31,870 nt of DNA from a virus, in the IMG/VR virus record IMGVR_UViG_3300047510_000513, positions 1 to 31,870 of that record; one strand, given 5' to 3'. This document shows positions 3,521-16,693 of this stretch, piece after piece. Made by a program: the position numbers and the translations under genes. The notes under the pieces were generated by a model. It was given only the letters and a program-made list of their open reading frames with translations. It did not search any database and was not told the DNA's origin. The first letter of the stretch is position 1; every line of letters starts with the position of its first letter.

Positions 3521-3899
3521 CTAACTTCATATTTGGATAAATTTGTAATAATAACTTTACTGCTTTACTACTATCATCCTTTTTCTTTTTAAGCCCTATC
3601 CACGGATGGAATTCTTTTTTACCAGTTTTACCAGCAACACACAACAGTTGCCATTGTAGCTTAGGATGATTTGCTCCTAACACTGCCCAGTTCTTATTGT
3701 AATATGCATTAACTTTGACCAACGCCAACGCTTGTTTTTCAAAGCTGCCGCCAACACTACTAATATAACGATTGAGATTCCACAAGTCAAGTTTTATTTC
3801 TTTCTTGCCTTCGTCGGTTGCTGCATCCCAAAGTTCTTTGATTCCTAAGTCAATAGCAGGAATCATTTCCTTAAAAAGATCAATATGTTTGTTCGCCAT
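3432..3899 (-). CDS. Conserved phage protein, 155 aa, function unknown
   Basis: A basic, helical protein with 'VKVNAYYNKNWAVLGANHPK' near residues 61-80, 'QWQLLCVAGKTGKKEFHPWIGLKKK' beyond it, and a C-terminal helical part containing 'ARISTKKELQELAREHGYD' that looks like a small SAP- or HeH-like helix-turn-helix ending. I do not recognise a known enzyme motif. The ATG at 3899 lies inside the 3' end of kdsB (20-base overlap), so its translation is coupled to the Kdo genes, although the neighbours downstream are replication-type. A small clamp-loader subunit (gp62) was considered because of its size, but no specific similarity could be seen. Confidence 0.65.
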   Translation of the reverse strand: MANKHIDLFKEMIPAIDLGIKELWDAATDEGKKEIKLDLWNLNRYISSVGGSFEKQALALVKVNAYYNKNWAVLGANHPKLQWQLLCVAGKTGKKEFHPWIGLKKKKDDSSKAVKLLLQIYPNMKLDEVETLARISTKKELQELAREHGYDKVDL

Positions 3900-4560
3900 T
3901 ACGTTTGTGCCATTCTACCAAATCTTCTGGTGTGTTAATTTCTATACCGTCAAACTCTACTTCAACAACTCCGATTTTGACACCGTTCTGTATCCATCTT
4001 AGTTGTTCTAGTTTTTCAATGTCTTCTTCAATAAATTTGGTGCTGGTTGAATACATTGATTTTGCTTCTCTGTTGTAGCCATATACTCCAAGATGGTGAT
4101 CACCATATTGTAGGCTTGCACGTAGAAACCAATGTGCTCTTCCTCTACTGTGTATCATTTTAACAGTGTTTGGATTATTACGCAAGTTAAAATCCATCTG
4201 TGTATATGCAGTTGATACATCACTTTTTTGTAATTCTGATTCTACCTTAAGAATTATTTCAGGAGTAATGTCTGGCATGTCTCCTTGCACATTAATGTAG
4301 CGATCATATTGCAACACTTCGTCAATAACTTGCATACAACGTTCTGTACCGTTTTCTGCTTCTGTAGTCCACAAACATTTTTTAGCACCAAGGTAGTTGT
4401 AAATTTCTTGGTTATCAGTTAGCACATATGTACTAAGTCCTGTTGCAGCACACTTGTTGTAAACATGTTCTACAAGGGGAACACCGTTTAACTTTGCCAT
4501 CATCTTTCCAGGAAATCTAGTACTGGCATATCTTGCAGGGATTAGTATTGCTGTTGTCAT
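3880..4560 (-). CDS. kdsB: CMP-Kdo synthetase (3-deoxy-manno-octulosonate cytidylyltransferase)
   Basis: Activates Kdo with CTP to CMP-Kdo, the donor for Kdo transfer to lipopolysaccharide or capsule linkers; cytoplasmic. The N-terminus 'IPARYASTRFPGK' (7-19) is the KdsB nucleotide-binding signature. 'NGTERC' (70-75), 'NVQGDMP' (90-96, metal-binding D94; usual NxQGDEP with Glu changed to Met) and 'HHLGVYGY' follow in family order. Length 226 aa is slightly below the usual 245-255. I start at the ATG of an ATGA overlap with the kdsA stop (4560); the frame also has an in-frame TTG two codons earlier. The 3' end overlaps the next gene by 20 bases. Together with kdsA it forms a two-gene Kdo pair. 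Confidence in family is high; activity is inferred. Confidence 0.93.
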   Translation of the reverse strand: MTTAILIPARYASTRFPGKMMAKLNGVPLVEHVYNKCAATGLSTYVLTDNQEIYNYLGAKKCLWTTEAENGTERCMQVIDEVLQYDRYINVQGDMPDITPEIILKVESELQKSDVSTAYTQMDFNLRNNPNTVKMIHSRGRAHWFLRASLQYGDHHLGVYGYNREAKSMYSTSTKFIEEDIEKLEQLRWIQNGVKIGVVEVEFDGIEINTPEDLVEWHKRNGEQTY

Positions 4561-5348
4561 AGCCAAGTGTATCCTCTTGCTGCATCACCGACTACTTTAA
4601 TTTGTTTTACAACATCTTCAAAGTCTTTTAAATGTAACATATTAGGACCATCGCTGGGTGCGTTGTCCGGATCAGGGTGTACTTCTAGGAAGAAGTTGGT
4701 TACGCCTAGAGCACTAGCTGCACGAGCCAAGCCAGGAACATAAGAACGATTGCCATCGCTACTAGTTCCTCGGCCGCCTGGTTTTTGTACACTGTGCGTG
4801 GCGTCGAGTACAATAGGTACACTAAAATTATCGAGCATATAGTTAAGGCCGGTGAAATCAACAACCAAGGCATTATATCCAAAGCTAGTTCCTCTCTCTG
4901 TTATCCAAACTTCTTTGGCTCCTTCGATCTTCGAAAGAATACCCGCGACATCCCACGGTGCAAGAAACTGTCCTTTTTTAATATTAACCGTTTTGCCTGT
5001 TGCCACACAAGCTCTAATAAGATCTGTTTGGCGACAAAGAAAAGCAGGGATCTGATAAACGTCAACTGAATCTCCCCAAACTGTATTGATATAAGTTACT
5101 TGGTTTATATCGTGTACGTCTGTTAGTGTATTTACTCCTAATTGTTCTTTTAGGCTTCTGAAGTCATACATGGTTTTTTCGAGACCTAGTCCTCGCTTAC
5201 CTGACATACTTGTACGGTTTGCTTTATCATAGCTGGCCTTGAAATAATATTCAACGCCGTATTTTTCACATACACGTTTGCATTCTTGAGCAATTTCTAA
5301 ACTCTGTTCTAGAGTTTCGTGCTGGCATGGGCCTGCAATAATTTTCAT
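4557..5348 (-). CDS. kdsA: Kdo-8-phosphate synthase
   Basis: Condenses arabinose-5-phosphate with phosphoenolpyruvate to Kdo-8-phosphate. The protein is complete (263 aa from the ATG at 5348) and follows the family throughout: 'AGPCQHE' at 5-11, 'FKASYDKANRTS' at 36-47, 'LTDVHD', 'IPAFLCRQTDL', 'NIKKGQF', 'LDATHSVQ' and 'EVHPDPDNAPSDGP'. The metal ligands of the metal-dependent class (Cys, His, Glu, Asp as in Aquifex) are present as C8, H185, E222 and D233, where the E. coli-type enzyme has Asn instead of Cys. An upstream ATG at 5360 adds four residues; I prefer 5348 because GGA lies 7 bases ahead and TAA of the previous gene ends just before. KdsD and KdsC partners are not in the window. Confidence 0.95.
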   Translation of the reverse strand: MKIIAGPCQHETLEQSLEIAQECKRVCEKYGVEYYFKASYDKANRTSMSGKRGLGLEKTMYDFRSLKEQLGVNTLTDVHDINQVTYINTVWGDSVDVYQIPAFLCRQTDLIRACVATGKTVNIKKGQFLAPWDVAGILSKIEGAKEVWITERGTSFGYNALVVDFTGLNYMLDNFSVPIVLDATHSVQKPGGRGTSSDGNRSYVPGLARAASALGVTNFFLEVHPDPDNAPSDGPNMLHLKDFEDVVKQIKVVGDAARGYTWL

Positions 5349-5349
5349 T

Positions 5350-5634
5350 TTATTTTCCATTTTTTATAAGATAATATATGTCAAGAGTTTTGTCAAGTTG
5401 TTTTCTAAGAGTAGGATTTTTGTCTGCTAAACTGAATAATTCTTTCCAACTATCATAACTCAAATAACCTTGTGCTACAGCAATCTCCTCGGCACTGCCG
5501 CCGATTATCCAACGTCCTGCATATAAACTTTTTTTTGGTTCATCTCTAAAACGTGCATATGTCACACTGTTGGCTTGTTCATATATCAATGACTCACCAA
5601 TCAGTTCAACTAAATCAGGACGGTCTATTAACAT
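5350..5634 (-). CDS. Hypothetical protein, 94 aa
   Basis: Starts at the ATG of a TAATG junction with the upstream methyltransferase (stop and start share a base at 5634) and ends a few bases before kdsA. A longer frame from 5712 exists but lies inside the methyltransferase, so the short form is chosen. The protein is soluble and helical with 'SLYAGRWIIGGSAEEIAVAQG' in the middle and a C-terminal helix 'LRKQLDKTLDIYYLIKNGK'. The 'GGSAEEIAVAQGY' segment followed by 'DSWKELF' resembles a small helix-turn-helix, but this is weak. Location between sugar genes suggests a role in the same pathway or simply a passenger. I do not recognise it. Confidence 0.6.
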   Translation of the reverse strand: MLIDRPDLVELIGESLIYEQANSVTYARFRDEPKKSLYAGRWIIGGSAEEIAVAQGYLSYDSWKELFSLADKNPTLRKQLDKTLDIYYLIKNGK

Positions 5635-6233
5635 TATAGAGTTTGTACCTTGTTTGCACGCCATTGTTGAAAGTCTAGTTCTTCGAATACTATGTCTTCT
5701 CTTACATACCATGTTTCATATGGTAGCCAAGATTTTTTACAAAACACATCTCTAACAGCAACTTTGTATCCATGCTTCTTTAAAAACTCAGTTGCTTGTT
5801 CATTAAAGGTTGTATCAGGAAAGTTATACCAGTCGTGTTCAAATGTAATAGATTCAAACTCAACACCTTGATTGATTACACGCTGCAAAGCTGCATAGGT
5901 ATTTTCAGGCGGTTCAATGTCGCAACTCAAATATCCAACTTTGGTGGTCATTCCTTGTTCGCGAATTGCTGCAAGGTAATCAAATGTAAGTGCGTTTTCA
6001 AAATAACAAGGATTGTTTCTCGACGACGTGTCCCATGCATTGTTCCATTTGTCGTTTAGTTCAATACTAAATCCTTTCCATCCGTGATTAGAATCTAGAT
6101 TGAATGTGTTATTAATGCGTCTAGGATGACTGCCACCAATCTCAATATAGGTTTTATTTTTGCATATTTCTAATGCAAATAAATCTTGTCCTGCTTGTGC
6201 TTCGGACTTTCCGAGTAAAGGATTCTTTTTCAT
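5634..6233 (-). CDS. FkbM-like SAM-dependent methyltransferase
   Basis: A 199-aa protein with the layout of FkbM-type enzymes: 'SEAQAGQDLFALEI' at 10-23, the SAM-binding strand 'KTYIEIGGSHPRRINNTF' at 27-44 (E31 and G33-G34 replace the usual D-x-G-x-x-x-G), then 'GFSIELND' for the ribose-binding acid, and 'GYLSCDIE' as the later strand. These enzymes O-methylate sugars or small molecules; the substrate here is not visible. It is in a tight operon: its ATG overlaps the dehydrogenase-like gene by 4 bases, and its stop overlaps the next start. A role in modifying the phage-directed glycan is inference from context. Confidence 0.7.
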   Translation of the reverse strand: MKKNPLLGKSEAQAGQDLFALEICKNKTYIEIGGSHPRRINNTFNLDSNHGWKGFSIELNDKWNNAWDTSSRNNPCYFENALTFDYLAAIREQGMTTKVGYLSCDIEPPENTYAALQRVINQGVEFESITFEHDWYNFPDTTFNEQATEFLKKHGYKVAVRDVFCKKSWLPYETWYVREDIVFEELDFQQWRANKVQTL

Positions 6234-7024
6234 TCTCTCATTCCGTTAAACACTGTTTTTTTAAGTTTGTTATTATCATTGTTTATACTTTGTATTAGAT
6301 CAAAGTCCAAGTTCAGTTGATTTAACAATGCAGCAATAGCTTGTGTATCTTTTGGCAAACACATTCCGCCGTAACCTCTTAGCCCAGGACTCACATCAAG
6401 ATACATGTCAACTGCTTTTCCTGTTTTAATATAAGCATTTTTAATAGTTGTGTAATCGCAATCTAGTTTATCACAGATTTCGTACATAACATTTGCAAAG
6501 GTAACACGTAGAGCTGCATATACGTTATTGTAATATTTTAGCACCTCTGCTTCACTGGGCGTAAGATGTTCTGTATTCTCTGGTAAGTTGCCATGAGCTT
6601 TTACAAGTTTTCTATACACCCAAATATCATGTGTTCCAATAGCAAGTAGTTTGTGATTGTTTATAAAATCGTCAGCAGCACAACGTTCTCTTAAAAATTC
6701 AGGAACAAAACAAATAGTTAGATTTTTATATGTATCTATCATTCGTTGTGTAAAACCAGGAACTACGGTACTACGTATAGCTACAATACCCTTGTATGTG
6801 TGGTCTTGTAATTCTTGTATTACACTTTCGATTATACTTGTATTGCAACTACCATCTGCTGCTTGAGGAGTTGGAACACAAATAAATACTATTTCGGTGT
6901 TTAGTACATCAGTTATTAGTGTGGGCAATTTGATGTCGTGTACACTTACTTCGTGACCAAGATATTCAAACCCTTGTTTGTTTGCACTTCCTACAGCACC
7001 TAACCCTACTATACCTAATTTCAT
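6230..7024 (-). CDS. UDP-glucose/GDP-mannose dehydrogenase-like protein, short form
   Basis: An N-terminal Rossmann fold is clear: 'GIVGLGAVG' at 4-12 (GxGxxG at 7-12), 'VFICVPTPQ' at 46-54, 'IRSTVVPG' at 83-90, 'PEFLRE' at 108-113 and the catalytic-cysteine block 'GYGGMCLPKDTQA' at 217-229 (C222). The helical central domain has 'KYYNNVYAA'. The family oxidises NDP-sugars to NDP-uronic acids in two steps, using the Cys. Typical members are about 390-450 aa and carry a C-terminal UDP-binding domain; this one ends at 264 aa, just after the central domain, in a compact 4-base overlap with its neighbour, so the short form looks genuine rather than a frameshift. How it would hold an NDP-sugar is unclear. 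Confidence 0.85.
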   Translation of the reverse strand: MKLGIVGLGAVGSANKQGFEYLGHEVSVHDIKLPTLITDVLNTEIVFICVPTPQAADGSCNTSIIESVIQELQDHTYKGIVAIRSTVVPGFTQRMIDTYKNLTICFVPEFLRERCAADDFINNHKLLAIGTHDIWVYRKLVKAHGNLPENTEHLTPSEAEVLKYYNNVYAALRVTFANVMYEICDKLDCDYTTIKNAYIKTGKAVDMYLDVSPGLRGYGGMCLPKDTQAIAALLNQLNLDFDLIQSINNDNNKLKKTVFNGMRE

Positions 7025-7887
7025 ATTAGACTTTCTATTGTTTTTTTAAGTCCTAATTCCAACGGCGTGTAATCTTTAAATCCAGTAAGCATACGAACTA
7101 AACTAGTATCAGGACATCTGCGTTTAGCACTTCCTGCAAGCCCTGGTAAGATTTCTAACCGATCTGGATCTACACCCATAATATTCATAATTGTTTTTGC
7201 TACAGTACTTATTTCAATTTCTTCTTGATGACCTACGTTTACAATGTAACCATTATGATGTTGGACAAGATTATGTGTCATAACAACAGCATCATCAATG
7301 TAGCAGAAACTTCTAGTATCGTTGCCTTTAATATAATATTCGCCGTTCTTTACACGTTCAACAAATTCACTGATAAAGTGATCTCGTTGTCTTGGACCAT
7401 AGATATTAAAATATCTAATGATAAGCCAAGGTGCACCACAATTGGCAACTAAGTTTTCACCTAATGCTTTTGGAAGACTGTAACTCCATCTAGGATTAGT
7501 TATATCTTCAAACATTATTGGTACAGATTCGTCAGTGGGGACACTGTGTAGATTTCTATCTACAGTAGTATTAAAAATCTCGCAAGTACTTGTAAACACA
7601 ATCTTAGTATTGGTATTTTGATATCTGTGTACTAGATTGAAAGTAGGCAGTGTATTGTTGGTTGCAACTTCAGTTGGAATTTCATAAAACAGTTTTGTAC
7701 CATTGGTTGCAGCCATATGTACCAGTACATCGCAATCCGGACTTTCGTAAGCAGTTCTTGTATTGCACAGATCTTCGCCCGAGTCTTTATCAAACCCGTA
7801 AACTGATTCTACTTCGACTCGGTCTTTTATATAATCTAAATAATGACTACCGATAAAACCTTTGTGGCCTGTTAATACTATTTTCAT
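7021..7887 (-). CDS. NAD-dependent sugar epimerase/dehydratase (extended SDR)
   Basis: A 288-aa extended short-chain dehydrogenase/reductase acting on NDP-sugars in the cytoplasm. The cofactor loop 'TGHKGFIG' at 6-13 has GxxGxxG; 'VLVHMAA' at 55-61, 'FTSTCEIF' with S100/T101, the catalytic 'YSLPK' (Y136, K140), 'IRYFNIYGPRQ' at 157-167 and 'RSFCYIDDAV' (near 199-208) all occur at standard places. The product cannot be told from sequence: UDP-glucose 4-epimerase, a uronate decarboxylase or a dTDP-sugar enzyme are possible. ATGA-type overlaps on both sides put it in one operon with the dehydrogenase-like gene, with which it may act in sequence. Confidence 0.88.
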   Translation of the reverse strand: MKIVLTGHKGFIGSHYLDYIKDRVEVESVYGFDKDSGEDLCNTRTAYESPDCDVLVHMAATNGTKLFYEIPTEVATNNTLPTFNLVHRYQNTNTKIVFTSTCEIFNTTVDRNLHSVPTDESVPIMFEDITNPRWSYSLPKALGENLVANCGAPWLIIRYFNIYGPRQRDHFISEFVERVKNGEYYIKGNDTRSFCYIDDAVVMTHNLVQHHNGYIVNVGHQEEIEISTVAKTIMNIMGVDPDRLEILPGLAGSAKRRCPDTSLVRMLTGFKDYTPLELGLKKTIESLI

Positions 7888-8630
7888 TTTTTTCTAGCCC
7901 GCAGTTTTGCAATTTTTAAATTTTGATCTCTGTTTTCTTTTTTGTCTCCCTTGTAATGAGTTATTTTTCCTATAAATTTTCTATCAAAATGCTGAGAGCT
8001 TAAATCTGGTGGACTTATATTTTGAGCTTTAATTTTACCCAATGATTCCATTTCTTCCTTTACAGCGTCAAATACGTGACAATCTAGTTGAGCAGGCAAG
8101 TTATAAATTTCATTTGTATTATAATACCATTCCCAACGATCAAAAAACGTTTTTGACCACTTATTCCTTAAATTAAAACATAACCAACCAGTTTCACTAT
8201 ATCTATTGGGTCTACCTAAATAACTCACAAAATAATCTAAATCTAATTGTTCGCTTAGATATTGGTGAGTGATAGGAGCAATAACTTCTGTATCGGCGTC
8301 TAACCAAATAAGCAAATCAGTTTCGATTGTTCTGCTTGCATGTATTATGCAGTAACTTTTATGACTAAATCTTACTGCATCTCTTATCCATCCTTTGGTT
8401 CCAGTAGGTATAACTTTGTCGCTGTTGCGTTTTTTAAATTCTACTAAATTAGGAGAACACTGGTTTAAGATTCTGTTGCTAAAATTTGGCTTAAATAAAG
8501 TCAATGGTGTGTCTGTATATAGAACAACATCAACACGATTATCTAAAAATTTCTCTAGGCTTTCGACAAAATATCTGCCGTAAGTTTTATAGTGAGCTGG
8601 ACCAAAAGTTGAAATGATTGTTATTTTCAT
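7884..8630 (-). CDS. GT-A-type glycosyltransferase (phage paralog family)
   Basis: A 248-aa protein with an N-terminal strand 'KITIISTF', a 'YGRYFVESLEKF' helix, and 'LIWLDADTE' (DxD 111-113) for metal and nucleotide-sugar binding, then a C-terminal 'THYKGDKK' motif. It belongs to a group of four homologous proteins in this window (with 8627, 14159 and 18967) that share the N-terminal layout, the DAD motif and a C-terminal H/L-x-KG-x-x-K sequence. Family assignment (GT8/GT24-like fold) is by motif only. It probably transfers a sugar onto a glycan acceptor; donor and acceptor unknown. Genes on both sides overlap by 4 bases. Confidence 0.78.
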   Translation of the reverse strand: MKITIISTFGPAHYKTYGRYFVESLEKFLDNRVDVVLYTDTPLTLFKPNFSNRILNQCSPNLVEFKKRNSDKVIPTGTKGWIRDAVRFSHKSYCIIHASRTIETDLLIWLDADTEVIAPITHQYLSEQLDLDYFVSYLGRPNRYSETGWLCFNLRNKWSKTFFDRWEWYYNTNEIYNLPAQLDCHVFDAVKEEMESLGKIKAQNISPPDLSSQHFDRKFIGKITHYKGDKKENRDQNLKIAKLRARKK

Positions 8631-9385
8631 TCTTTTAATCCAATTAGTGATTGCATTTGTGTAGCATTCATATGTTTTTTACTTTTACCTTTTTGATGAC
8701 TAAAATATTTGCTTAATTCGCTATGATTTAATGGAGTTTGTGTTTTATCAGTTGTTCTAATAATACTTAAATCAAATACGTTTTCTATAAACATATTAGC
8801 AACCATCATACAAATTTGATTGTCCCACCATTTAACTATGTCGGTTGGCTTAAAAGGTAACTCATATATTTCTCTATATTTTTTTACAAATTTTAAAAAA
8901 TCTTTATGACGTTTGTTTATAATGACGTATCCTGTTTCGGCACTGTATCCTATAGGTACTTCATTTTTTGTATGAGCAATGTAGGCGTGATTAAACAATC
9001 CAATTAACATATTTTTTTTAATAGTAAGTTTTATAACATCTTCGTCGAACGGATTGTGAAATAATAAATCTGCATCTAACCAAATAAGGTAATCTGCATC
9101 TATGTTTTCCCAAGCATGAATACTTGCCCATCCTTTTTTGCCAAATTTTCTTGCACTGTTATCATCGGTTTTAACTGCAAACTTTTCCCAGTCTTCTTTG
9201 CACACTTTATTCCAATCATAGATTACTAAATTAAGTGCTTTGGGTAATTTGCTAATAATACTTTCGGCATATAGATGCAAAACAAAATGTTTTGGTGCAT
9301 ATTTTAAAAAACTTTCAAGCATGAATCTACCTATGTGATCATAGTATCGTTGATTCATGCTTGTAATAAATGCGTACTTTTTCAT
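8627..9385 (-). CDS. GT-A-type glycosyltransferase (phage paralog family)
   Basis: A 252-aa member of the same group as the gene at 7884. Starts 'MKKYAFITSMNQRYYDHIG', has 'RFMLESFLKYAPKHF' and the metal motif 'LIWLDADLLFH' (DAD 104-106), followed by 'YSAETGYVIINKRHKDF', which resembles the acceptor-side 'TGxxxxN' segment also seen in 7884 ('SETGWLCFNLR'). The C-terminus has 'FSHQKGKSKKHMN', a variant of the KGDxK motif. The start at 9385 is preceded by 'CTAAATAT', close to the late-promoter-like motifs elsewhere, but by no clear Shine-Dalgarno sequence. It is the first of a run of seven overlapping genes reading from the cupin side. Substrates unknown. Confidence 0.78.
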   Translation of the reverse strand: MKKYAFITSMNQRYYDHIGRFMLESFLKYAPKHFVLHLYAESIISKLPKALNLVIYDWNKVCKEDWEKFAVKTDDNSARKFGKKGWASIHAWENIDADYLIWLDADLLFHNPFDEDVIKLTIKKNMLIGLFNHAYIAHTKNEVPIGYSAETGYVIINKRHKDFLKFVKKYREIYELPFKPTDIVKWWDNQICMMVANMFIENVFDLSIIRTTDKTQTPLNHSELSKYFSHQKGKSKKHMNATQMQSLIGLKE

Positions 9386-9393
9386 ACAGATAT

Positions 9394-9759
9394 TTAGTTT
9401 TTGTCCACTGCTGTACCAATAGTCCTGCGAACAATATCATCGTGATTAAATTCTGCCCAGTATAGTTCAAATGCTACGCCATCTTCTAGGCCTTCGAACT
9501 GGTGCACCTTGCCTGGCTTAACCATTGCAAATTGTCCGCCGTGAAGAACTGTTTCATCAACTAATCCGTTTTGATCTTCGTCTTGCCAAACACGAATTAT
9601 CATCTTTCCATGTTCTACGTAAAATCCATTCCACTTGTATTTGTGATGATGCTCGCTGCATTTGTAACCAGCCTTAAATGCAATCCTATGAAACTCTAAT
9701 GCACCATTACCAAATATAAAATCTGTAGTACCCCAAATTTTTCCTGCTCGTGTCGCCAT
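9394..9759 (-). CDS. Single-domain cupin protein
   Basis: A 121-aa protein that fits one cupin barrel. Metal-binding motif 1 is 'CSEHHHKYKWNGFYVEHGK' (34-52) and motif 2 'MVKPGKVHQFEGLEDG' (79-94), with the H-H-H and late His residues typical of metal-binding cupins. A tryptophan-rich 'IIRVWQDEDQNGLVDE' lies between. The function is not determined by the fold: sugar-epimerase-like (RmlC-type), isomerase-like or binding roles are possible. The ribosome site is strong (AAGGAGAATAAC before the ATG) and follows the stop of the small membrane gene by 11 bases, so it is likely cotranscribed with that gene and leads into the sugar operon. Confidence 0.8.
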   Translation of the reverse strand: MATRAGKIWGTTDFIFGNGALEFHRIAFKAGYKCSEHHHKYKWNGFYVEHGKMIIRVWQDEDQNGLVDETVLHGGQFAMVKPGKVHQFEGLEDGVAFELYWAEFNHDDIVRRTIGTAVDKN

Positions 9760-9770
9760 TGTTATTCTCC

Positions 9771-9926
9771 TTAAATATTATATGCAATGTATGCTAGTAT
9801 TGGTGCAATTACCAATAGCAAAATTGCCGAATTGTTGTTTCTTAATGCCCAAGAAAACAATTTACCTAAAACAACAAGTGCTAACAGTCCTACAAATATT
9901 ACAATTAGTAATGCAACCAACTCCAT
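9771..9926 (-). CDS. Small two-helix membrane protein, 51 aa
   Basis: An ORF of 51 codons (ATG at 9926). The protein 'MELVALLIVIFVGLLALVVL' at 1-20 is a membrane helix, followed by a short polar turn 'GKLFSWALRNNNS' and a second hydrophobic stretch 'AILLLVIAPILAYIAYNI' at 34-51. The ATG follows directly on the TAA of the upstream 48-aa gene, with no gap, so it is probably coupled. Small two-helix proteins in phages can be holins, antiholins or membrane-modifying peptides, but position among unknown and sugar genes gives no support for lysis. Function not assigned. Confidence 0.7.
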   Translation of the reverse strand: MELVALLIVIFVGLLALVVLGKLFSWALRNNNSAILLLVIAPILAYIAYNI

Positions 9927-10073
9927 TTATCTAACCTCGTATACGCCAGATTTTACATTATCTTTACCGTATTGTGCTTCGATAAGTTTTTTAGCACTAA
10001 CAGTATCTTTGGCACTTACTTGAGTTTTTGTGCTCATGCCACCAACAGTTACAATTGCTTCATATGTTTTCAT
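9927..10073 (-). CDS. Small conserved-looking protein, 48 aa
   Basis: A 48-codon ORF starting at the ATG at 10073 with an AAAGGAG ribosome site 7 bases ahead. Predicted protein begins 'MKTYEAIVTVGGMSTKTQVS' and continues as a helix 'AKDTVSAKKLIEAQYG' before ending 'KSGVYEVR'. The beta-strand, helix, beta-strand order with a repeated 'AIVTV...V' pattern resembles small single-domain phage proteins that appear near structural and replication genes in marine T4-like phages. No motif permits a functional call. It lies 12 bases after the 168-aa gene and is immediately followed by the membrane protein gene. Confidence 0.65.
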   Translation of the reverse strand: MKTYEAIVTVGGMSTKTQVSAKDTVSAKKLIEAQYGKDNVKSGVYEVR

Positions 10074-10085
10074 TTTAATTCTCCT

Positions 10086-10592
10086 TTATAATAGTTTTCC
10101 AAAATCAATAATTTCACTTTGACGGTTTATATCCTTGACAAAGTATGCACACTGTGGATTAGGTCCTTCAGTTATTGGTACACATAAAAGATGTCCGTTT
10201 CTCATTTTCGGAAAAAACCATTTTACATCATTATAAAAATTAGTTATTTCTATATTACCAAACTGTGCCATATTTCCGGTTAACGGATTAAACAAAAAGG
10301 CTTCAAAGCCTCTATCATTTAAACTTGTAAGCGGTAATACTTCTAAGTCACTGCCTGCTTCACTACAGCCAACAGCTACACACCAGTCTAATGGCATTGT
10401 GATTTCATTGCCATTAATTTCTAATACTATAGCAGGACTATTAAAACTTTCTAAAAAAATCAGTGGGTTAAAAAAGAAATCTGGATCTACTGGGTTACTG
10501 TTGTCTAGTACGGCAAATCTTAGTGTATCGTCAACGCTGTCTGGTAATCGATTCAAAGAAAATGATTTATTTTCTAATGTTAGTATTCTCAT
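10086..10592 (-). CDS. Hypothetical protein, 168 aa
   Basis: Starts 'MRILTLENKSFSLNRLPDSV' and is rich in Asn, Phe and Pro. 'VDPDFFFNPLIFLESF' sits near 35-50 and the C-terminal half contains 'KWFFPKMRNGHLLCVPITEG' and 'QCAYFVKDI'. There are several Cys (C71, C75, near 137 and 149) but no zinc-ribbon spacing. The protein looks like a compact beta-rich fold; I do not recognise a family. The start lies 6 bases from the uvsW stop, with no strong Shine-Dalgarno sequence. It is the upstream partner of the two small genes, and probably belongs to the same transcript as uvsW. Confidence 0.65.
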   Translation of the reverse strand: MRILTLENKSFSLNRLPDSVDDTLRFAVLDNSNPVDPDFFFNPLIFLESFNSPAIVLEINGNEITMPLDWCVAVGCSEAGSDLEVLPLTSLNDRGFEAFLFNPLTGNMAQFGNIEITNFYNDVKWFFPKMRNGHLLCVPITEGPNPQCAYFVKDINRQSEIIDFGKLL

Positions 10593-10598
10593 CTAAAA

Positions 10599-12062
10599 TT
10601 AATTCCAATCTACCTTTTCAATGGTAAATGGGTATTGAGCTTCCTTGTAAAACTTCTTTCGTTCGGTAAGGTGCCGCTTCGCAAACTTACATGTGCTTGT
10701 AAGATCCCATATTTGTACGAAGTCTTTGTCTTTTGCCTTTCTAACGCCTCTACCGATACTTTGAATTACTCTTACAAAACTTTTGCCAGGTTCAAGCAAC
10801 ACAAGATTAAAAATACGTGGAATGTTAAGTCCAACCGCAGCAACACCATACGTAGCAATAATTACTTCGTTTGTGCCTTCTCGAATTGTGTCGTATGTTT
10901 CTTTTCTGTCTTTTACTTTAACAGCACCACTGATAAAGGTGCTATTAGGTATAAGTTCCTGTAGCATCTCTCCTGCAGAAATTCTATCTACAAGAATTAG
11001 AGTATTGCCTGAGTTTTTTATAGTGTTTAATAATTTGCCTATGTATTCTATACGTTCTTTATTACTAACTAGATATTTTAATTCTTCTTGATAGCCTCTA
11101 TGTGCCACAGTATCAATTAGCTGTACAATGTTAACATGACAGTCTGCTAGCACACCTTTGTCTTGTAATTCTTTTGCTGTAATCTGTCCAATAACCGGGC
11201 CAAGGCTTGCGTGAATACTTTCAAACTCAAACTTCTCTTTGGGCACTGTACCAGTTAGTCCCCAGCGAATTGGAGCGTTACGCAAGTTGCGTGTAAGTAG
11301 ATTTTTTAGTACTTCTGCTTTGGCCTGGTGTACTTCGTCAACAATAACTGTGCTTACACCTTCTAAGAACTCTGCTAGGCTTAGTACTGCATCACCGTCT
11401 TTGTGACGCTTATCAAGAATGTTTAAACTTTGCCAAGTGCAAATAGTGTGTGTTTTTCCTAGTTGTTTTCTGTCACCGAAATAAACACCTACGTCAAGTC
11501 CGCAGTTAATATAATCTTCTTCAGTTTGTTCAACCAAGCTCTTGTTAGGTACAATGACAAGACTGCGACCATATGGTTCGCTAATGTGACTTAGTGTTGC
11601 TGTGGTAATAGTTTTACCTGCACCGGTAGCAATCTGTTGTAGACTTTGCGGGTTAGCAATAAAGTTGTTGATTGCTTCAACTTGATAGTCGCGAAGCATA
11701 ATAAGTTCGCCTTCAGCTGGATGGCCTTTTGGCCAACGCACGCCTTGATCGGCCCAATAGGTTTCGGTTACTGGTTGAAGATTTAATTGTATTGGATGCC
11801 TGTTATCTTCGATGTCTACAATTTGAACATTGTTCTTTTGTAGAATGTCAACAATAATATCCAAATGATTAACATAGCCGCTGCCGCCGATTCCAAAGAA
11901 CGCAACTTTGCCATCCCAACGTCCAAGCTTGAATTGAGGCATGTGTTTTGCATACGGCACTTCAAACTTTAGTGCATTTGCAAGTTTACGACGAACGTCA
12001 ATATCAAGTCCTTCGAGCTTGATATTGACTTCATCTTCAATTATTAGTTTACAAGTAGGCAT
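10599..12062 (-). CDS. uvsW: UvsW-like ATP-dependent DNA helicase
   Basis: A 487-aa superfamily-2 helicase that in T4 unwinds branched DNA and R-loops and controls origin-dependent replication and recombination repair. Motifs: N-terminal UvsW-type substrate domain with 'HMPQFKLGRWDGKVAFF' (40-56), Q-motif region 'LRDYQVEAINNF', Walker A 'ATGAGKT' (145-151), 'VPNKSLVEQT', DEVH box (242-245), 'LTGTVP' (269-274), motif V/VI region 'IQSIGRGVRKAKDK'. Length matches T4 UvsW (about 500 aa). The ATG at 12062 overlaps the 402-aa gene by 14 bases. In T4 and relatives uvsW and uvsY lie next to each other; here they are separated by about 7.5 kb of sugar genes and a 402-aa gene. Confidence 0.93.
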   Translation of the reverse strand: MPTCKLIIEDEVNIKLEGLDIDVRRKLANALKFEVPYAKHMPQFKLGRWDGKVAFFGIGGSGYVNHLDIIVDILQKNNVQIVDIEDNRHPIQLNLQPVTETYWADQGVRWPKGHPAEGELIMLRDYQVEAINNFIANPQSLQQIATGAGKTITTATLSHISEPYGRSLVIVPNKSLVEQTEEDYINCGLDVGVYFGDRKQLGKTHTICTWQSLNILDKRHKDGDAVLSLAEFLEGVSTVIVDEVHQAKAEVLKNLLTRNLRNAPIRWGLTGTVPKEKFEFESIHASLGPVIGQITAKELQDKGVLADCHVNIVQLIDTVAHRGYQEELKYLVSNKERIEYIGKLLNTIKNSGNTLILVDRISAGEMLQELIPNSTFISGAVKVKDRKETYDTIREGTNEVIIATYGVAAVGLNIPRIFNLVLLEPGKSFVRVIQSIGRGVRKAKDKDFVQIWDLTSTCKFAKRHLTERKKFYKEAQYPFTIEKVDWN

Positions 12063-13257
12063 ACGATTTATTCAGTTTTCCTATTAAACTAGAATCTTTA
12101 TCATGTACCATGACAAGATCGCAACAATCGTTAATATAATAATTAACGTGTGTATGACTTCTAGTGCCGGTAATAATTAATGCAGCACTAGGTTTCCAAT
12201 CTGTTTTTAACAACAATTTAGGAAGTTTATTTTTACAAATATACACGATTTCAGTGTTTGTGTCAAGCCAGTTGTTCAAAGACCGCTCGTGAATAAAATC
12301 GTTAACATTGTATTTGTTTTCGGTTTCTACTCTAAATAAAACACTTTGTTTTTCAGAAGGAACTAGATAAGAAAACGCATCATAAACAGACGACACTTGT
12401 TTTAAAGCATCTTCTTTGTCAATTACAACAAGTAGCGGAAATCTATCAAGATGCATAGTTGCTTCTGCAATTGAATTTAAATTAAACGATTCTGGATTGA
12501 TATTGATTTCTTTATCTGTCCTAAAAGCAATTTCGCCAATTAAGCCAGCAGGCACGTTATCATAATCAACTGTTACAATGCCATATCTACGTTTACGATC
12601 AATGATTTTTAAAATATTTGACTTGTCAATATTGCCAATTTCTTTTTCGATTAATTGACAACCGTCATCGCTTATATTTTTTACAGTGTAATTGATTACA
12701 CTAGGGTACAGAGAACGTTCGTTCTCTTTTAAAGATTTAACTTCGTTGTACCATTCAATCAGTTGAGTATCAATGTCGAACTTCTTTTCTATAAAAGAAT
12801 GTACAACATTATAAACATTATTTTCAGTTAAACGAAAATAGTGTTCATGACTACCGCGTTGATGAAAATAATTATTTCTTTTTGAACTTGAATTAAGTTG
12901 TTCAACTGCAACAATATTTTTTTTACTAAATGGAAATTTAATCTTAATCCATTTCCATTTTTGTTTGTAACTCTCATATGGAGCGTCACCCATCATGTTT
13001 TGATGATTTACAATAGTAATCGAATGTTCGCGGTTGATTATACGCAACGGCAATCTAGTGTTATCTAACATTTCATCAATGTTAACATCAAAACAGTGCT
13101 TGTAATTAAGCAGCTTTGATTTAACAAGAGCATGTTGACGATCAGTTAGAGCAGTGCCTTTTTTTACCTGTTGACTAATGCTAACAAGAATGGGCTTGTC
13201 TGACGGATTAATGTCGTGATTATCCACTAGGGTTTGTAGTATATCTTCTATGAACAT
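12049..13257 (-). CDS. Unknown 402-aa protein next to uvsW
   Basis: An acidic/basic mixed protein with an N-terminal helical region 'FIEDILQTLVDNHDINPSDK' (2-21) and 'GTALTDRQHALVKSKLL' (34-50). A central basic region 'KWKWIKIKFPFSKKNIV' and a C-terminal part with alternating strand-helix stretches such as 'FPLLVVIDKEDAL', 'TEIVYICKN' and 'SAALIITGTR' that read like a Rossmann-type or toprim-like fold. No Walker or nuclease motif could be found. It overlaps uvsW by 14 bases. I have a general memory that marine T4-like phages carry such a protein near uvsW, without function. A recombination or replication role is guesswork from position. Confidence 0.65.
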   Translation of the reverse strand: MFIEDILQTLVDNHDINPSDKPILVSISQQVKKGTALTDRQHALVKSKLLNYKHCFDVNIDEMLDNTRLPLRIINREHSITIVNHQNMMGDAPYESYKQKWKWIKIKFPFSKKNIVAVEQLNSSSKRNNYFHQRGSHEHYFRLTENNVYNVVHSFIEKKFDIDTQLIEWYNEVKSLKENERSLYPSVINYTVKNISDDGCQLIEKEIGNIDKSNILKIIDRKRRYGIVTVDYDNVPAGLIGEIAFRTDKEININPESFNLNSIAEATMHLDRFPLLVVIDKEDALKQVSSVYDAFSYLVPSEKQSVLFRVETENKYNVNDFIHERSLNNWLDTNTEIVYICKNKLPKLLLKTDWKPSAALIITGTRSHTHVNYYINDCCDLVMVHDKDSSLIGKLNKSYAYL

Positions 13258-13274
13258 ACAGTAAATTTAGCATA

Positions 13275-14120
13275 TTAAAGTTTCTGTGTCAAGTTTTTCA
13301 AAGGGATACCTTGCGATATTTCTTCTACTGTCCATTCAGTGTGTGCATAGTTGTTGAGCCATTGTTGCCTATCTGGCAAATGAGGATTGTCTACCATTAA
13401 CAAATGCGGACATGCTACATCAAACGCTAAACTATATGGACTAACAAACGCAGGTACACCATTGATGATACTGTGTATCCCTGGATTACTACTCCAACTT
13501 ACAGTGTATTTTACATTAGCAAAGTTCATATCAAAGTCGTCGTATGTGCCTGATATCTGCTTTGGTTCTTGCCTATAAACATTCTTGTATTGACGTTCAA
13601 TGTCTGGAAGTCTGCATCTCGGGTGCGGGCGAAATATAATAGGATAGTTGTAATGCATTTGCAACGCTTCGATTGTATCCATTACCCACTTGCTCATAGA
13701 TGGCATGCCTTGCCACTGTAAACTTTTATCGTGTTGTCCACAAATTAAAATACATTCACCATCTTGTCGCCATGGTTTTAATTCTAGTCCTAATTTGCGA
13801 CTGCGTAGATCATCCATACCACCAGGCCCAAAATAAGCATCCCTGTTAATTCCATTTAGTCCTACTTTCCATGTTGTTCCACGTTTGATACCGCCGACTT
13901 CTAACACAACTACATTACGATTATTTTTACGAAAACTATTCCATACGTCTTTGTTTTTGGCCATACGTCCATAAAACAACACGCTCCATATAACAGCAAC
14001 ATCTGCATTCATATCATTGTAGACAACAGTATGACCTGCAGAACGTAAACTATGTTCGAATGCTTCAAACACAGGTTTACTGTTTAATGCTCCATATTCT
14101 TTGAATAAACTAAATTTCAT
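13275..14120 (-). CDS. Capsule/Kdo-transferase-like GT-B protein, paralog A
   Basis: A 281-aa protein from the ATG at 14120; the GGAG 9 bases ahead supports this over the in-frame TTG five codons upstream. The central 'WVMDTIEALQMHYNYPIIFR' leads into 'RPHPRCR', and 'ANVKYTVSWSSNPGIHSIIN' precedes 'GVPAFVSPYS'. This matches the HP motif and the S/N-x-S-x-x-x-E/H-A/S-L/I-x-G-x-P block of capsule synthesis (KpsC/KpsS-like) proteins. The C-terminal 'DRQQWLNNYAHTEWTVEEIS' is shared with the protein at 14965, and more distantly that at 15881, so the three are paralogs. The substrate is inferred, not seen. Divergent from the plus-strand glycosyltransferase. Confidence 0.7.
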   Translation of the reverse strand: MKFSLFKEYGALNSKPVFEAFEHSLRSAGHTVVYNDMNADVAVIWSVLFYGRMAKNKDVWNSFRKNNRNVVVLEVGGIKRGTTWKVGLNGINRDAYFGPGGMDDLRSRKLGLELKPWRQDGECILICGQHDKSLQWQGMPSMSKWVMDTIEALQMHYNYPIIFRPHPRCRLPDIERQYKNVYRQEPKQISGTYDDFDMNFANVKYTVSWSSNPGIHSIINGVPAFVSPYSLAFDVACPHLLMVDNPHLPDRQQWLNNYAHTEWTVEEISQGIPLKNLTQKL

Positions 14121-14158
14121 AAGTAAATACTCCAAGTATATTTAATAAGGATTTTATA
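14121..14158. promoter_or_regulatory. Divergent start region with late-type sequence
   Basis: A 38-base gap between the minus-strand gene (ATG at 14120, GGAG 9 bases ahead) and the plus-strand gene (GTG at 14159, AAGGA 7 bases ahead). The minus strand contains CTATAAAATCC near 14150-14160, close to TATAAATA, and could start transcription leftward. No convincing promoter for the plus gene is visible. Confidence 0.4.
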
Positions 14159-14977
14159 GTGACAAAAATTTCTGTAGTTAGTACATTTCATGCTCCGGTG
14201 CTGGACTTATATGGTCAGCGGTTTATTGATAGTTTTAGCAAAAATATTGATCCTAAAATAGAACTTTTACTATATGCAGAAGATTGTGTTCCTACTACAA
14301 ATGACAGTAGAATTACCATATTAGATCAAAAAGAAAATCTTCCAAAATTAAATGCATTCAAAGAGTATTGGAAAAACGATCCTCGTGCAAATGGAATACC
14401 ACCTGACGATATTAAACGTAAAAGAAAAGATTGGAATAAAACATTTAAATGGGATGCAATAAGATTTGCTAATAAAGTTTATGCAGTATTTGATGCTGCA
14501 AAACGCACAGATGCAGATTGGTTGTTTTGGATGGATGCAGATACATTTGTACATTCCTATATGCCACAAGAAGCATTTGAAAAACATATGAGTAAAAAAG
14601 CATGGTTGTGCTATTTAGGCAGAGGTAAAAAATGGCCAGAATGTGGGTTTTATGGTATAAATCTAAAACACTCTACCGGACAAGAATTTTTAAAAGAATT
14701 TGAACATGTATACGAACATGCCGAATATGGAATATTCCGCATGGATGAGTGGCATGATAGTTTTGTGTTTGAAGAAGTACGTAAGAAAATATACGCAAAC
14801 TATCCCAATGATGCAATCATTAATATTAGTAAAGATTTAGTAAACGGAGAAGGGCATCCGTTGATTAACAGTGACCTTGGTCGGTATTTGGATCATTTAA
14901 AGGGTGATAGAAAAAATACTGGTAAAAGCAAACAAACTGATTTAATCGTAAAACGCAACGAAAGTTACTGGCAATAA
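14159..14977 (+). CDS. GT-A-type glycosyltransferase on the plus strand (paralog family)
   Basis: A 272-aa protein starting at GTG (14159) with an AAGGA ribosome site 7 bases upstream. 'KISVVSTFHAPVLDLYGQRF' (3-22) aligns with the N-terminus of the 7884 protein; 'WLFWMDADTF' (DAD 126-128) and C-terminal 'DHLKGDRKNTGK' identify it as the same family. A segment 'DDIKRKRKDWNKTFKWDAIRF' at 83-103 has extra length relative to the paralogs. It is the only sugar gene on the plus strand: it diverges from 13275 and its final 13 bases overlap the end of 14965 on the opposite strand. This suggests a local inversion or separate acquisition after duplication. Confidence 0.8.
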   Translation: MTKISVVSTFHAPVLDLYGQRFIDSFSKNIDPKIELLLYAEDCVPTTNDSRITILDQKENLPKLNAFKEYWKNDPRANGIPPDDIKRKRKDWNKTFKWDAIRFANKVYAVFDAAKRTDADWLFWMDADTFVHSYMPQEAFEKHMSKKAWLCYLGRGKKWPECGFYGINLKHSTGQEFLKEFEHVYEHAEYGIFRMDEWHDSFVFEEVRKKIYANYPNDAIINISKDLVNGEGHPLINSDLGRYLDHLKGDRKNTGKSKQTDLIVKRNESYWQ

Positions 14978-15894
14978 TTTCTCATATGACGCCAAGCTGA
15001 GCCGTCTTCGAGTTCACTAAACTTCCAATGAAACATCGATATTCTTTCTAGCCATTGTTGTCTATCAAAATCATCTGGATTTTCTATTTTACTAAAGTCT
15101 GTATTTGCAACATCTTTACATTGACTTTTTACTGGGTCTGTAATAAATCCACGATATCCTTTGATAATAGGTCCTACAATTGCACTGCTATTATGATTAA
15201 CCACTGCCCAGGCATTTGCTAAATCGGTTTCTAAAGAATTGTTAAAATTACTGATCGATACATTTGGCAAGTTTTTTATTAAGGTTTTTCTAGGATCTAA
15301 ATAGATTTTAGCCTGTTTGTCTCCAGGATGCGGTCTAATTAAAATTGGTCGGCTTGAATGTTTTCTAATTTTTTTAATTGTATCCAACGCCCATTGTTGT
15401 GTGTCTACGCCGCCCATACTCCAGCCGCCTTTTCTTTGTAACATTAAAAGTATATGCTTGCCGTGTGGTTTTATGTTTTCTATATTGATCTTACAATCTC
15501 TAGATATTTGTTGCCATCTAGCAGGATCTACTTTATCGTCACAATAGATTCCTGTATTAGGAAAAACTCCGTTGAAACTATATCGTAGATATCCGTGAGG
15601 ATTGATTTTGTTTGAATACAAAAACAAATTTGCATCAGCAACTACTACATATTTTTTGTTTTTTAGTTGAGTATCGATTATTTGTTTTCTTAACTTTAAA
15701 TGCGGAGACGAGATATCATCATATACCCACCCTTGTATAACTCCTACATCTGCAGACAATACTTTGCCGGTATTTTCTATTATTCCTTCGTCGCTGTTTT
15801 TTACAACACCGGTGATAAATTTTAATAAAAGATCTGTTTTTTGCTGATTGGTATTGTTTGCTGGAACAGTTTTAAGATAACTAACTATCTTCAT
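14965..15894 (-). CDS. Capsule/Kdo-transferase-like GT-B protein, paralog B
   Basis: A 309-aa protein with 'WALDTIKKIRKHSSRPILIR' leading to 'RPHPGDK' (HP motif), then 'NAWAVVNHNSSAIVGPIIKG' for the donor-sugar side and the shared C-terminus 'DRQQWLERISMFHWKFSELE' followed by 'DGSAWRHM'. It is about 30 aa longer than paralog A at the N-terminus. The sequence order fits GT-B-type capsule synthesis proteins (KpsC/KpsS group, which transfer Kdo), but assignment is from these motifs only. The start overlaps the stop of paralog C by 14 bases. A candidate user of CMP-Kdo made by the phage KdsA/KdsB, which is inference. Confidence 0.72.
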   Translation of the reverse strand: MKIVSYLKTVPANNTNQQKTDLLLKFITGVVKNSDEGIIENTGKVLSADVGVIQGWVYDDISSPHLKLRKQIIDTQLKNKKYVVVADANLFLYSNKINPHGYLRYSFNGVFPNTGIYCDDKVDPARWQQISRDCKINIENIKPHGKHILLMLQRKGGWSMGGVDTQQWALDTIKKIRKHSSRPILIRPHPGDKQAKIYLDPRKTLIKNLPNVSISNFNNSLETDLANAWAVVNHNSSAIVGPIIKGYRGFITDPVKSQCKDVANTDFSKIENPDDFDRQQWLERISMFHWKFSELEDGSAWRHMRNYCQ

Positions 15895-16693
15895 TTAGTA
15901 TGCTCCATGCAAATCCGTTTTGCATTTCGGTAGCAGTAAACTGACAATAAGACAAGTGTGCTGCAAATCTAACAGTTTCTTCTTTGGTGGGCAAATATAA
16001 ACTATTGATCTGTTTAAGTTCGGTATTACACAATACAGAAGCAGCGTTTGGTGCTAGTGTTATAGCCGGTACACTGTAAAGTAATGCTTCGGTTGCTGCA
16101 ATGCTGTTAAACGTAACCAAGCAATATGCATCATCTAATGCATTCCAAATTGTATTCGTTGTAACTCTTTCAGACCGATCAGGTTTGAGTCTAACTTCAA
16201 TTGGACGATCAGTATATGTCTTAATTGTATCAATAGTTTCCTTTAACCAAACGTCAAGATCTTTTTCATAAAACTTCATTACTTTGTCAGACGGCGGACA
16301 TATTAAAATTTTACTACCAGTCTGTCTAGTTCTATTTTTGTATTTCCAGTTTAACTTTCTTAGTCTATCAAGATCTCTGTCTTTTATAGGTCCTAAGTTT
16401 TGTAATGCATTTTTAGTAATACGATGATAGTCTTTTTTTGTATTAGGTTGAATATATCCTGAATCAACAGCATAAAAATCTATTTTATTTTCTAAACAAT
16501 ATTTTATAGCTTTCTGGCCACGTCCGCCTAGTCCACGAATTACCAGGGTGTTGCCGGTGCCTTTTTTTAATTCAAAATTACATATACGTCCGCCCGAACC
16601 CAATATAAATGATTGGAGATAAGGATCATATTGCAATCCCTTGACTTCGTAGTTAAATCCGTCGGATGCAATTGCTGCAACTTTTATTCCCAT
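15881..16693 (-). CDS. Capsule/Kdo-transferase-like GT-B protein, paralog C (possibly fused upstream)
   Basis: A 270-aa protein from the ATG at 16693, or the C-terminal part of a longer protein (see the A10 finding). 'WLKETIDTIKTYTDRPIEVR' aligns with paralogs A and B, but its HP motif is degenerate ('RLKPDRSE'), which may mean altered activity. 'DDAYCLVTFNSIAATEALLY' followed by 'SVPAITLAP' is the clearest sugar-donor block of the three. The N-terminus 'GLGGRGQKAIKYCLENKIDF' resembles the corresponding part of paralogs. The ATG has only a distant GAGG (11-base gap), and the frame stays open upstream to 16888 with no ATG/GTG/TTG, so the true start is uncertain. Confidence 0.7.
   Translation of the reverse strand: MGIKVAAIASDGFNYEVKGLQYDPYLQSFILGSGGRICNFELKKGTGNTLVIRGLGGRGQKAIKYCLENKIDFYAVDSGYIQPNTKKDYHRITKNALQNLGPIKDRDLDRLRKLNWKYKNRTRQTGSKILICPPSDKVMKFYEKDLDVWLKETIDTIKTYTDRPIEVRLKPDRSERVTTNTIWNALDDAYCLVTFNSIAATEALLYSVPAITLAPNAASVLCNTELKQINSLYLPTKEETVRFAAHLSYCQFTATEMQNGFAWSILNEDS

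Follow-up and report, generated by a model that had tools for sequence, protein, structure and literature searches.

The closest described relatives of the proteins examined here are the retaining transferases of beta-linked 3-deoxy-D-manno-oct-2-ulosonic acid (Kdo). In KpsC, WbbB and KrkA (PMC10148158, PMC9587256, PMC12887879), the Asp of a QXXXD motif forms a covalent Kdo adduct, cytidine monophosphate (CMP) is bound by an HP motif and the acceptor is activated by a Glu; KrkA has its base at another place. KpsC (family GT107), the beta-Kdo transferase of the group 2 capsule linker, has two modules, and in E. coli UTI89 kdsB adjoins kpsC. WbbB, with its GT99 module, and KrkA (GT140) keep QXXXD and are domains of larger proteins. 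Among phages, kdsA and kdsB are already in print (excerpts of PMC10653327 and PMC5332604). Capsule-modification clusters of jumbo phages and lipopolysaccharide (LPS) clusters of cyanophages join sugar-nucleotide genes to several glycosyltransferases, and a lock-out hypothesis has been proposed for such surface-glycan clusters (PMC7824862, in excerpt). We examined a similar island in the virus record IMGVR_UViG_3300047510_000513 of IMG/VR, a linear metagenomic fragment analysed over its whole length of 31,870 bases (the window). It differs from the cyanophage and jumbo-phage clusters in that its transferases, GTB1, GTB2 and GTB3, are KpsC-derived and linked to kdsA and kdsB. The P-SSM2-type cyanophage is reportedly an example of an LPS cluster.

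Our best reading of the island, at a probability of roughly 0.5, is a phage glycan-decoration module in which kdsA and kdsB would boost CMP-Kdo and divergent KpsC-type enzymes would act on a host surface glycan. All features on which the original prediction was built were present in the sequence where it had placed them. The central genes are the following.

3880..4566, minus strand: kdsB-like gene of the CMP-Kdo synthetase family, 228 amino acids (aa), with Asn211 where an Asp ligand of Mg-A is expected
4557..5360, minus strand: kdsA, metal-type Kdo-8-phosphate synthase
13275..14135, minus strand: GTB1, KpsC-like GT-B protein of HP type
14965..15894, minus strand: GTB2, KpsC-like GT-B protein of HP type
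15881..16693, minus strand: GTB3, degenerate KpsC-like paralog of KP type, with a 14-base overlap with GTB2

Near-identical DNA was found on a contig of 92,765 bases, IMGVR_UViG_3300047564_003078 (G001), which was taken as the same phage: 15 of 16 60-base anchors of the window lay in it at a single offset, and 19 genes of its locus L001 were 100% identical to the window after rounding. No near DNA match to the window came from a named phage. Wider comparisons used 20 related virus records, picked for size by one gene or the other, none of them marked complete.

The three transferases were homologous beyond chance, as had been claimed for them, both by BLASTP within a 28-protein set (GTB1-GTB2 E 2.7e-14, GTB1-GTB3 2e-7, GTB2-GTB3 8e-5) and by comparison of their alignment profiles A1, A2 and A3 (A1-A2 1.3e-30, A1-A3 5e-18, A2-A3 1.6e-20). 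Their classification by sequence alone failed, because no Pfam, NCBIfam or PHROGs family was over cut-off or convincing and no sequence match in the PDB was meaningful. Pfam Capsule_synth (PF05159, gathering cut-off 20 bits) gave no match in the window or in the 20 records; stray matches occurred among relatives of GTB3 (4/45, best E 0.033) and GTB2 (1/45, E 0.099).

AlphaFold models of GTB2 and GTB1 were built from 45-row alignments and reached mean confidence (pLDDT) values of 94.8 and 91.7. With GTB1, all 25 Foldseek matches in the PDB at E ≤ 0.001 were WbbB, KpsC or KrkA (best 9.5e-8). With GTB2, beta-Kdo transferases made up 26 of 39 matches and filled ranks 1-20; the remaining 13 were eleven chains of the UDP-GlcNAc 2-epimerase group, TagF and tll1591. 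VIA-align placed beta-Kdo transferases at ranks 1-15 for both proteins, with Z 14.1-12.2 for GTB2 (next family 10.2) and Z 13.6-10.3 for GTB1 (next family 10.0). KpsC was the best structural match (Z 13.6-14.1), aligning to GTB2 at Z 14.1 with a root-mean-square deviation (rmsd) of 3.9 over 248 residues; the best row for GTB1 had Z 13.6 and rmsd 3.8 over 233. The WbbB GT99 module and KrkA fell in the same fold group (Z 10.3-12.9), and for GTB1 the KrkA rows were tied with the next family, whereas the KpsC and WbbB rows stood clear. Polysialyltransferase was the sole sialyltransferase in the VIA-align lists, at Z 9.8 with GTB2 and below the Kdo group, which is no evidence against that family. 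A match to unrelated GT-B folds, set beforehand as refuting, was not borne out for the two modelled proteins. In BFVD, four proteins of Tetraselmis virus 1 (A0A2P0VP54, A0A2P0VNK4, A0A2P0VP74 and A0A2P0VP72), two of them named capsule polysaccharide biosynthesis protein, matched GTB2 with TM-scores of 0.70-0.74 by query length, exceeding the solved structures listed.

Catalytic motifs were counted in 45 non-redundant picks from 148 (GTB1) and 172 (GTB2) full-length sequences. Invariant in 45/45 were E79, Q134, Ser138 and R169-x-H171-P172 of GTB1, and D87, Q153, Gly157 and R187-x-H189-P190 of GTB2. The corresponding sites of GTB3 were D77, P134, V138 (V 43/45, I 2/45) and R168-x-K170-P171 (RxKP 45/45), leaving it without the Gln, the Asp and the HP His. 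The CMP-binding (K/R)XHP motif was thus kept in GTB1 and GTB2 (45/45 each) and not in GTB3; the window copies read RPHP, RPHP and RLKP, the degeneration originally described for the third. Likewise present were a block rich in Ser and Asn in all three and DRQQWL in GTB1 and GTB2 alone. At the position aligned with the general base (E66 of KpsC), GTB1 has Glu (E79, 45/45), in an LE-x-G segment shared with KpsC, and GTB2 and GTB3 have Asp (45/45). RxHP and Gln are common to KpsC and both HP-type phage proteins. Unlike KpsC with its two modules, the phage proteins are free-standing single compact modules (270-309 aa) that PF05159 does not detect, and the KpsC nucleophile Asp160 is replaced in them by Ser, Gly or Val. 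Most GTB1 sequences carry, two positions beyond the Gln, an acid (D 38, E 6, N 1 of 45) that could be a displaced nucleophile; none was consistent in GTB2. To call the three simply Kdo transferases is wrong on the defining feature, because QXXXD is found in none and GTB3 lacks both Gln and the HP His. What stands of that claim is the KpsC-type kinship, and a KpsC-derived family that probably handles a CMP-ulosonate is a supported description.

Direct profile comparison of GTB1-3 with KpsC was weak (E 0.0015-0.003), and the homology claim therefore rests on the fold and on an intermediate group of complete phage paralogs. An unannotated open reading frame (ORF) of Manatee Spring podovirus MW202713 (L210:4792-5613) carries the full set LETGY, QVPQD and RPHP. 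Profile A6, an alignment of 20 complete phage paralogs with E71, Q133, D137, R173, H175 and P176 invariant, matched ten KpsC modules at E 3.5e-8 (95%), with E, Q, D, H and P in register with LEDG, QxxxD and HP of KpsC; the Manatee group alone gave 8.7e-9. A1, A2 and A3 matched A6 at 6e-45, 2.9e-56 and 3.4e-34, and GTB3 belongs to the family by this value and by its matches to A1 and A2. The profile check proposed with the original prediction thus divided: PF05159 and direct comparison did not connect the window proteins with KpsC convincingly, but the complete paralogs did, at about 1e-8. Modelled fold and profile together show GTB1 and GTB2 as apparent descendants of the retaining beta-Kdo transferase group. 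E. coli KpsS matched the complete paralogs weakly (E 1e-4, 58%) and the window set more weakly. DUF6716 (PF20471), to which E. coli NeuE is assigned in RefSeq, scored GTB3 under its gathering cut-off (15.5 versus 27 bits) and matched 13/45 GTB3 relatives at E ≤ 0.1 (best 6.4e-5). NeuE was considered on this hint as the parent of GTB3 and dropped, the profile comparison with UTI89 NeuE giving E 0.27, which is not significant.

A hidden Markov model survey of 4,073 ORFs, with eight bacterial, plasmid or S-SCSM2R loci left out, gave 539 family matches, which are not independent as several loci come from one contig. The GTB2 motif string was read in 166, the GTB1 string in 156, the main GTB3 string in 130 and KP-type variants in 38. 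The set was complete (QXXXD and RXHP) in 41, with Glu also read in 39 of these; the last 8 were three Caulobacter sequences of EQG/RHP type and five cut sequences. The order KP-GTB2-GTB1 occurred in 114 loci, and the same three with a complete copy in 32 more; KP and GTB2 ORFs lay at most 60 nt apart in 141/162 loci with both. In a scan with A6, covering loci of up to 10 kb on each side, the complete set was found in 74 of the 80 loci kept, among the matches listed; within these 74, the matches listed included GTB2-type copies in 58, GTB1-type in 44, KP-type in 50, the helicase in 40 and kdsA in 7. Across the 20 records, the score range of complete copies was reached only in G014 and G018, both with kdsA, and the 92.8-kb contig held one further paralog, KP-like with RxRP (G001:60919-61701). 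Since loci with a complete set often share the trio and the trio stands alone in 114 loci, the three nucleophile-less paralogs are the island core, and a complete copy joins them optionally as a fourth. A bacterial source was also sought, and 3 of 33 pattern-matching genome contig stretches encoded relatives. Two of these contigs (335 kb and 153 kb) come from one Neomarinimicrobiota metagenome-assembled genome and are probably phage contigs binned with it, because their paralog order is the one seen in phages; the third is a 3.9-kb Saccharibacteria contig.

The window kdsA is clearly a Kdo-8-phosphate synthase, as judged from its sequence. Of the three KdsA models listed, it exceeded the cut-offs of NF003543 (340.9 versus 242 bits) and TIGR01362 (323.3 versus 314) and fell short of that of NF009109 (233.8 versus 457); it matched KdsA structures in the PDB at E values down to 3.5e-77. 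Relatives point to ATG starts at M5 of kdsA, M3 of kdsB and M6 of GTB1 as the likely real ones. The metal ligands first given as C8/H185/E222/D233 are C12/H189/E226/D237 when numbered from the first ATG, and they were invariant in all 38 sequences aligned (of 40 picked). The second gene reached the cut-off of none of the five KdsB models (TIGR00466, 116.9 versus 155.2 bits), with KdsB still its best family; all 13 PDB matches were KdsB (best 3.1e-28), in keeping with its original naming as a CMP-Kdo gene. In CMP-Kdo synthetase, Mg-A is held between two strictly conserved Asp residues, D95 and D219 in Aquifex (PMC3149649, in excerpt). Phage kdsB had the first (D96) in 32/32 sequences aligned, out of 45 picked. 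E. coli KpsU and the KdsB of Synechococcus phage S-SCSM2R (PQ898602) retain the Asp that is altered in the window protein, which we place in the CMP-Kdo synthetase family with a predicted change of metal ligand. S-SCSM2R resembles the window in having annotated kdsA and kdsB with glycosyltransferases nearby; it differs in that its KdsA is only 41% identical, its genes lie on opposite strands and the record is not among the GTB1 or GTB2 matches. Ratios of nonsynonymous to synonymous change (dN/dS) were low, at 0.10-0.22, across kdsA, kdsB and GTB1-3 (one pair each), and 0.11 for both kdsA and kdsB against one relative, a rough value at dS 1.1 and 1.8.

A kdsB match was present in 75 of the 80 kdsA-centred loci, which were the best 80 of 226 found by scan, and in 76 of the 86 loci matched by kdsA, six of which entered through GTB1 (some matches partial or distant). 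The space between the two genes varied. In one relative they flank a Pal/OmpA-like protein with an apparent signal peptide (L006:10786-11298, plus strand; PF00691 over cut-off, TIGR02802 just under), and in another a DUF481 protein (L048:10787-11431, plus strand). A HemE-like uroporphyrinogen decarboxylase lies there in L018:10773-11750 (plus strand; PF01208 1.8e-62, TIGR01464 207.6 under a cut-off of 303) and, by reading, in L024:2875-3849 (plus strand). Genes for a DegT-type aminotransferase, a GDP-mannose dehydratase-like and a short-chain dehydrogenase-like protein are inserted, by reading, in L039:10797-13473 (plus strand). Other relatives have an FkbM-like gene, a HemE-like gene or nothing.

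Linkage of kdsA and kdsB to the transferases was looser than the combination first described. Among the 52 kdsA-centred loci whose upstream flank was 7 kb or longer, a sample drawn by kdsA, GTB1 was found in 46, GTB2 in 46 and GTB3 in 45. The transferase family was present in 16 of the 20 records: 14 held both, two the family only (G004 and G013) and four kdsA only (G007, G011, G016 and G017). Members of the same GT-B family also occur in cultured Caulobacter (CcrBL9, C1, CcrPW) and Pelagibacter (Mosig) phages and in MW202713, which keeps the E/QXXXD/RXHP set; they are annotated as hypothetical or not at all, and none of these records belongs to the 14 phage records that matched KdsA. Because the family occurs without kdsA and conversely, phage CMP-Kdo synthesis is usual and not obligatory for the transferases, which fits host supply and equally fits independence. 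The absence of the other Kdo steps held: the window showed neither a KdsC nor a KdsD gene, and KdsC (TIGR01670) and KdsD/KpsF (TIGR00393) were found in 0/20 related records, including the 92.8-kb contig. SIS isomerase (PF01380), KdtA (PF04413) and Capsule_synth (PF05159) were also at 0/20, and in each of these searches some of 14 control genomes gave matches. As none of the 20 records is marked complete, these absences apply to the records themselves. With KdsC, KdsD, KdtA and PF05159 all at 0/20, the host probably supplies the missing KdsC and KdsD steps.

The remaining genes of the island are listed below.

5350..5712, minus strand: small ORF directly upstream of kdsA, kept in relatives, without Pfam match
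6230..7024, minus strand: short UDP-glucose/GDP-mannose dehydrogenase-like protein, 264 aa, matched in 5/80 kdsA-centred loci
7021..7887, minus strand: NAD-dependent nucleotide-sugar epimerase/dehydratase, matched in 4/80 kdsA-centred loci
7884..8630, minus strand: glycosyltransferase-like by reading, homologous to 14159-14977 (E 1.6e-20), without Pfam match
8627..9385, minus strand: glycosyltransferase-like, homologous to 14159-14977 (E 1.3e-11), weak Glycos_transf_2 match (0.0056)
9394..9759, minus strand: cupin, Cupin_2 at 8e-6 just under cut-off, conserved in the island
10599-12062: DNA helicase, UvsW-like by reading
14159..14977, plus strand: glycosyltransferase-like protein between GTB1 and GTB2, weak Glycos_transf_2 match (0.043), in either orientation in relatives
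16831..17586, minus strand: GT8-like protein, Glyco_transf_8 at 0.0029 under cut-off, conserved island member
17555..18328, minus strand: HldE-type nucleotidyltransferase domain fused to a ManC-type cupin domain
18344..18970, minus strand: FkbM-family methyltransferase

The dehydrogenase-like protein lacks its C-terminal part, being 264 aa long against family profiles of about 380-440. A phage frame surrounds the island, with UvsY (19595-20050), UvsX (20264-21355), ssb, terminase and tail tube genes identified by PHROGs. The island was syntenic on contigs of up to 357 kb, from phages that are mostly uncultured. The nearest named terminases were those of PA5oct-like Pseudomonas jumbo phages (54%), and related contigs reach 330 and 357 kb; the phage is on these grounds a member of a large, T4-related (UvsX/UvsY) lineage. 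The same phage's contig encodes a 5-aminolevulinate synthase (L256:6225-7427, minus strand, equal to G001:66225-67427; TIGR01821 566 versus 339 bits), which hints at an alphaproteobacterial host. It also encodes a carbamoyltransferase with both Pfam halves (L255:5723-7342, plus strand) and a PstS-like phosphate-binding protein (L256:12397-13470, plus strand). Near tail genes of locus L253, a protein of 1500 aa without Pfam match (L253:628-5130, plus strand) holds about a dozen 'YDDYLxAxxxSxTELFW' repeats and is preceded by a protein that is GT2-like by reading.

In the preferred reading of a glycan-decoration module, KdsA and KdsB would raise the supply of CMP-Kdo at the phage-encoded steps from arabinose-5-phosphate made by the host. 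The gaps would presumably be filled by the KdsC and KdsD of the host, as the absence of both from the tested records suggests. GTB1 and GTB2 have lost the Asp nucleophile but seem to have retained RxHP for CMP, the Gln that binds the carboxylate and an acidic residue where the general base is expected; they may use a CMP donor to transfer Kdo or a closely related ulosonic acid with no covalent enzyme-sugar step. GTB3, with its gene overlapping that of GTB2 and its Gln, Asp and His lost, is most likely a partner subunit or a user of another donor. The most likely target would be a glycan of the host surface (LPS or capsule) that is modified in the cytoplasm, and its alteration would change the adsorption of other phages. 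We lean slightly towards the host surface rather than the virion: the sugar-nucleotide enzymes, several glycosyltransferase-like proteins and FkbM of the island resemble LPS and capsule clusters, and envelope-type proteins lie between kdsA and kdsB in two relatives. A more specific proposal, that the core pair GTB1/GTB2 are single-displacement (inverting) Kdo transferases making alpha-Kdo links, possibly with GTB3 as obligatory partner, we consider unlikely. Several results weigh against the module as proposed. QXXXD is absent from every window copy (QxxxS in GTB1, QxxxG in GTB2, PxxxV in GTB3), TM-scores against solved Kdo transferases were modest (0.38-0.58 by query length) and the weak direct profile matches to KpsC carried only 10-17%. 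Asn211 replaces the second Mg-A Asp of kdsB in 32/32 sequences, and dS was near or above 1 in three of five pairs, so that the dN/dS ratios are rough. The kdsA gene occurs without the transferase family in 4/20 records; conversely, G004 (261.8 kb) has the transferase island intact and no kdsA, and in its locus L119 window kdsA and kdsB are unmatched between the same neighbours. No flippase, polymerase or export gene was seen among the scanned window genes, for which no dedicated search was made. The arrangement in Caulobacter phages, where relatives follow a very large protein, fits glycosylation of the virion.

That alternative, in which the same enzymes decorate tail fibres or capsid and not the host surface, draws on CcrBL9, C1 and CcrPW, where HP-type and KP-type relatives stand one gene after the very large protein (hypothetical in C1, a putative tail protein in the other two) and are followed by an FkbM gene and, in CcrBL9, also by a heptosyltransferase-family protein. 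Large DNA viruses that glycosylate themselves are also known. In the window clade, however, the trio lies between uvsX and the UvsW-like helicase and away from the tail genes, and with the envelope-type neighbours of kdsA-kdsB this makes virion glycosylation rather unlikely. It is somewhat doubtful that GTB1-3 are transferases using a CMP- or other nucleotide-activated form of another sugar, a pseudaminic-type or other ulosonic acid or a non-ulosonate, with kdsA and kdsB as an independent LPS-booster pair. The loose co-occurrence in the 20 records, the relatives in phages without a kdsA match and the further sugar genes of the island would all fit, as would KpsS1/GT118, a KpsC relative that uses pseudaminic acid (excerpt of PMC12887879). 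Against this stand the fixed synteny with kdsA in 46/52 loci, a kdsA-based sample, and the conserved RxHP and Gln, which are CMP and Kdo-carboxylate ligands in known enzymes. The lost nucleophile, the further losses in GTB3 and the close spacing of KP and GTB2 ORFs would also be expected if GTB1-3 were pseudoenzymes or scaffold subunits, active only through the optional nucleophile-bearing fourth paralog, which shares the island and has GTB2 beside it in 58/74 loci among the matches listed. We find this distinctly unlikely, given that only G014 and G018 of the 20 records reached the fourth-paralog range, that the 92.8-kb contig had no match in it (records may be incomplete) and that E79, Q134, R169, H171 and P172 of GTB1 are invariant, as for a working site. 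A linear metagenomic fragment could in principle be misassembled or contaminated with bacterial DNA; the same arrangement in many separate IMG/VR contigs refutes this, and with terminase, UvsX, UvsY, ssb and tail tube genes framing the island its probability is negligible.

Among the matches listed from the open-licence literature, we recognised no report of KpsC-like or nucleophile-less Kdo transferases in phages, and as far as these searches show, the nucleophile-less KpsC-like core with its complete sister paralogs is undescribed. For proteins of cultured Caulobacter and Pelagibacter phages that lack annotation, the family offers a lead. It also gives phage kdsA and kdsB, which have so far been listed as auxiliary metabolic genes, a candidate transfer step. 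The same fold without the nucleophile, beside paralogs that have it, provides natural pairs for testing how a mechanism is gained or lost. If the core pair did prove to be inverting enzymes, a retaining family would have turned inverting through loss of its covalent nucleophile, and phages would contain a natural series of evolutionary stages in the beta-Kdo transferase fold, with the complete paralog beside the nucleophile-less core.

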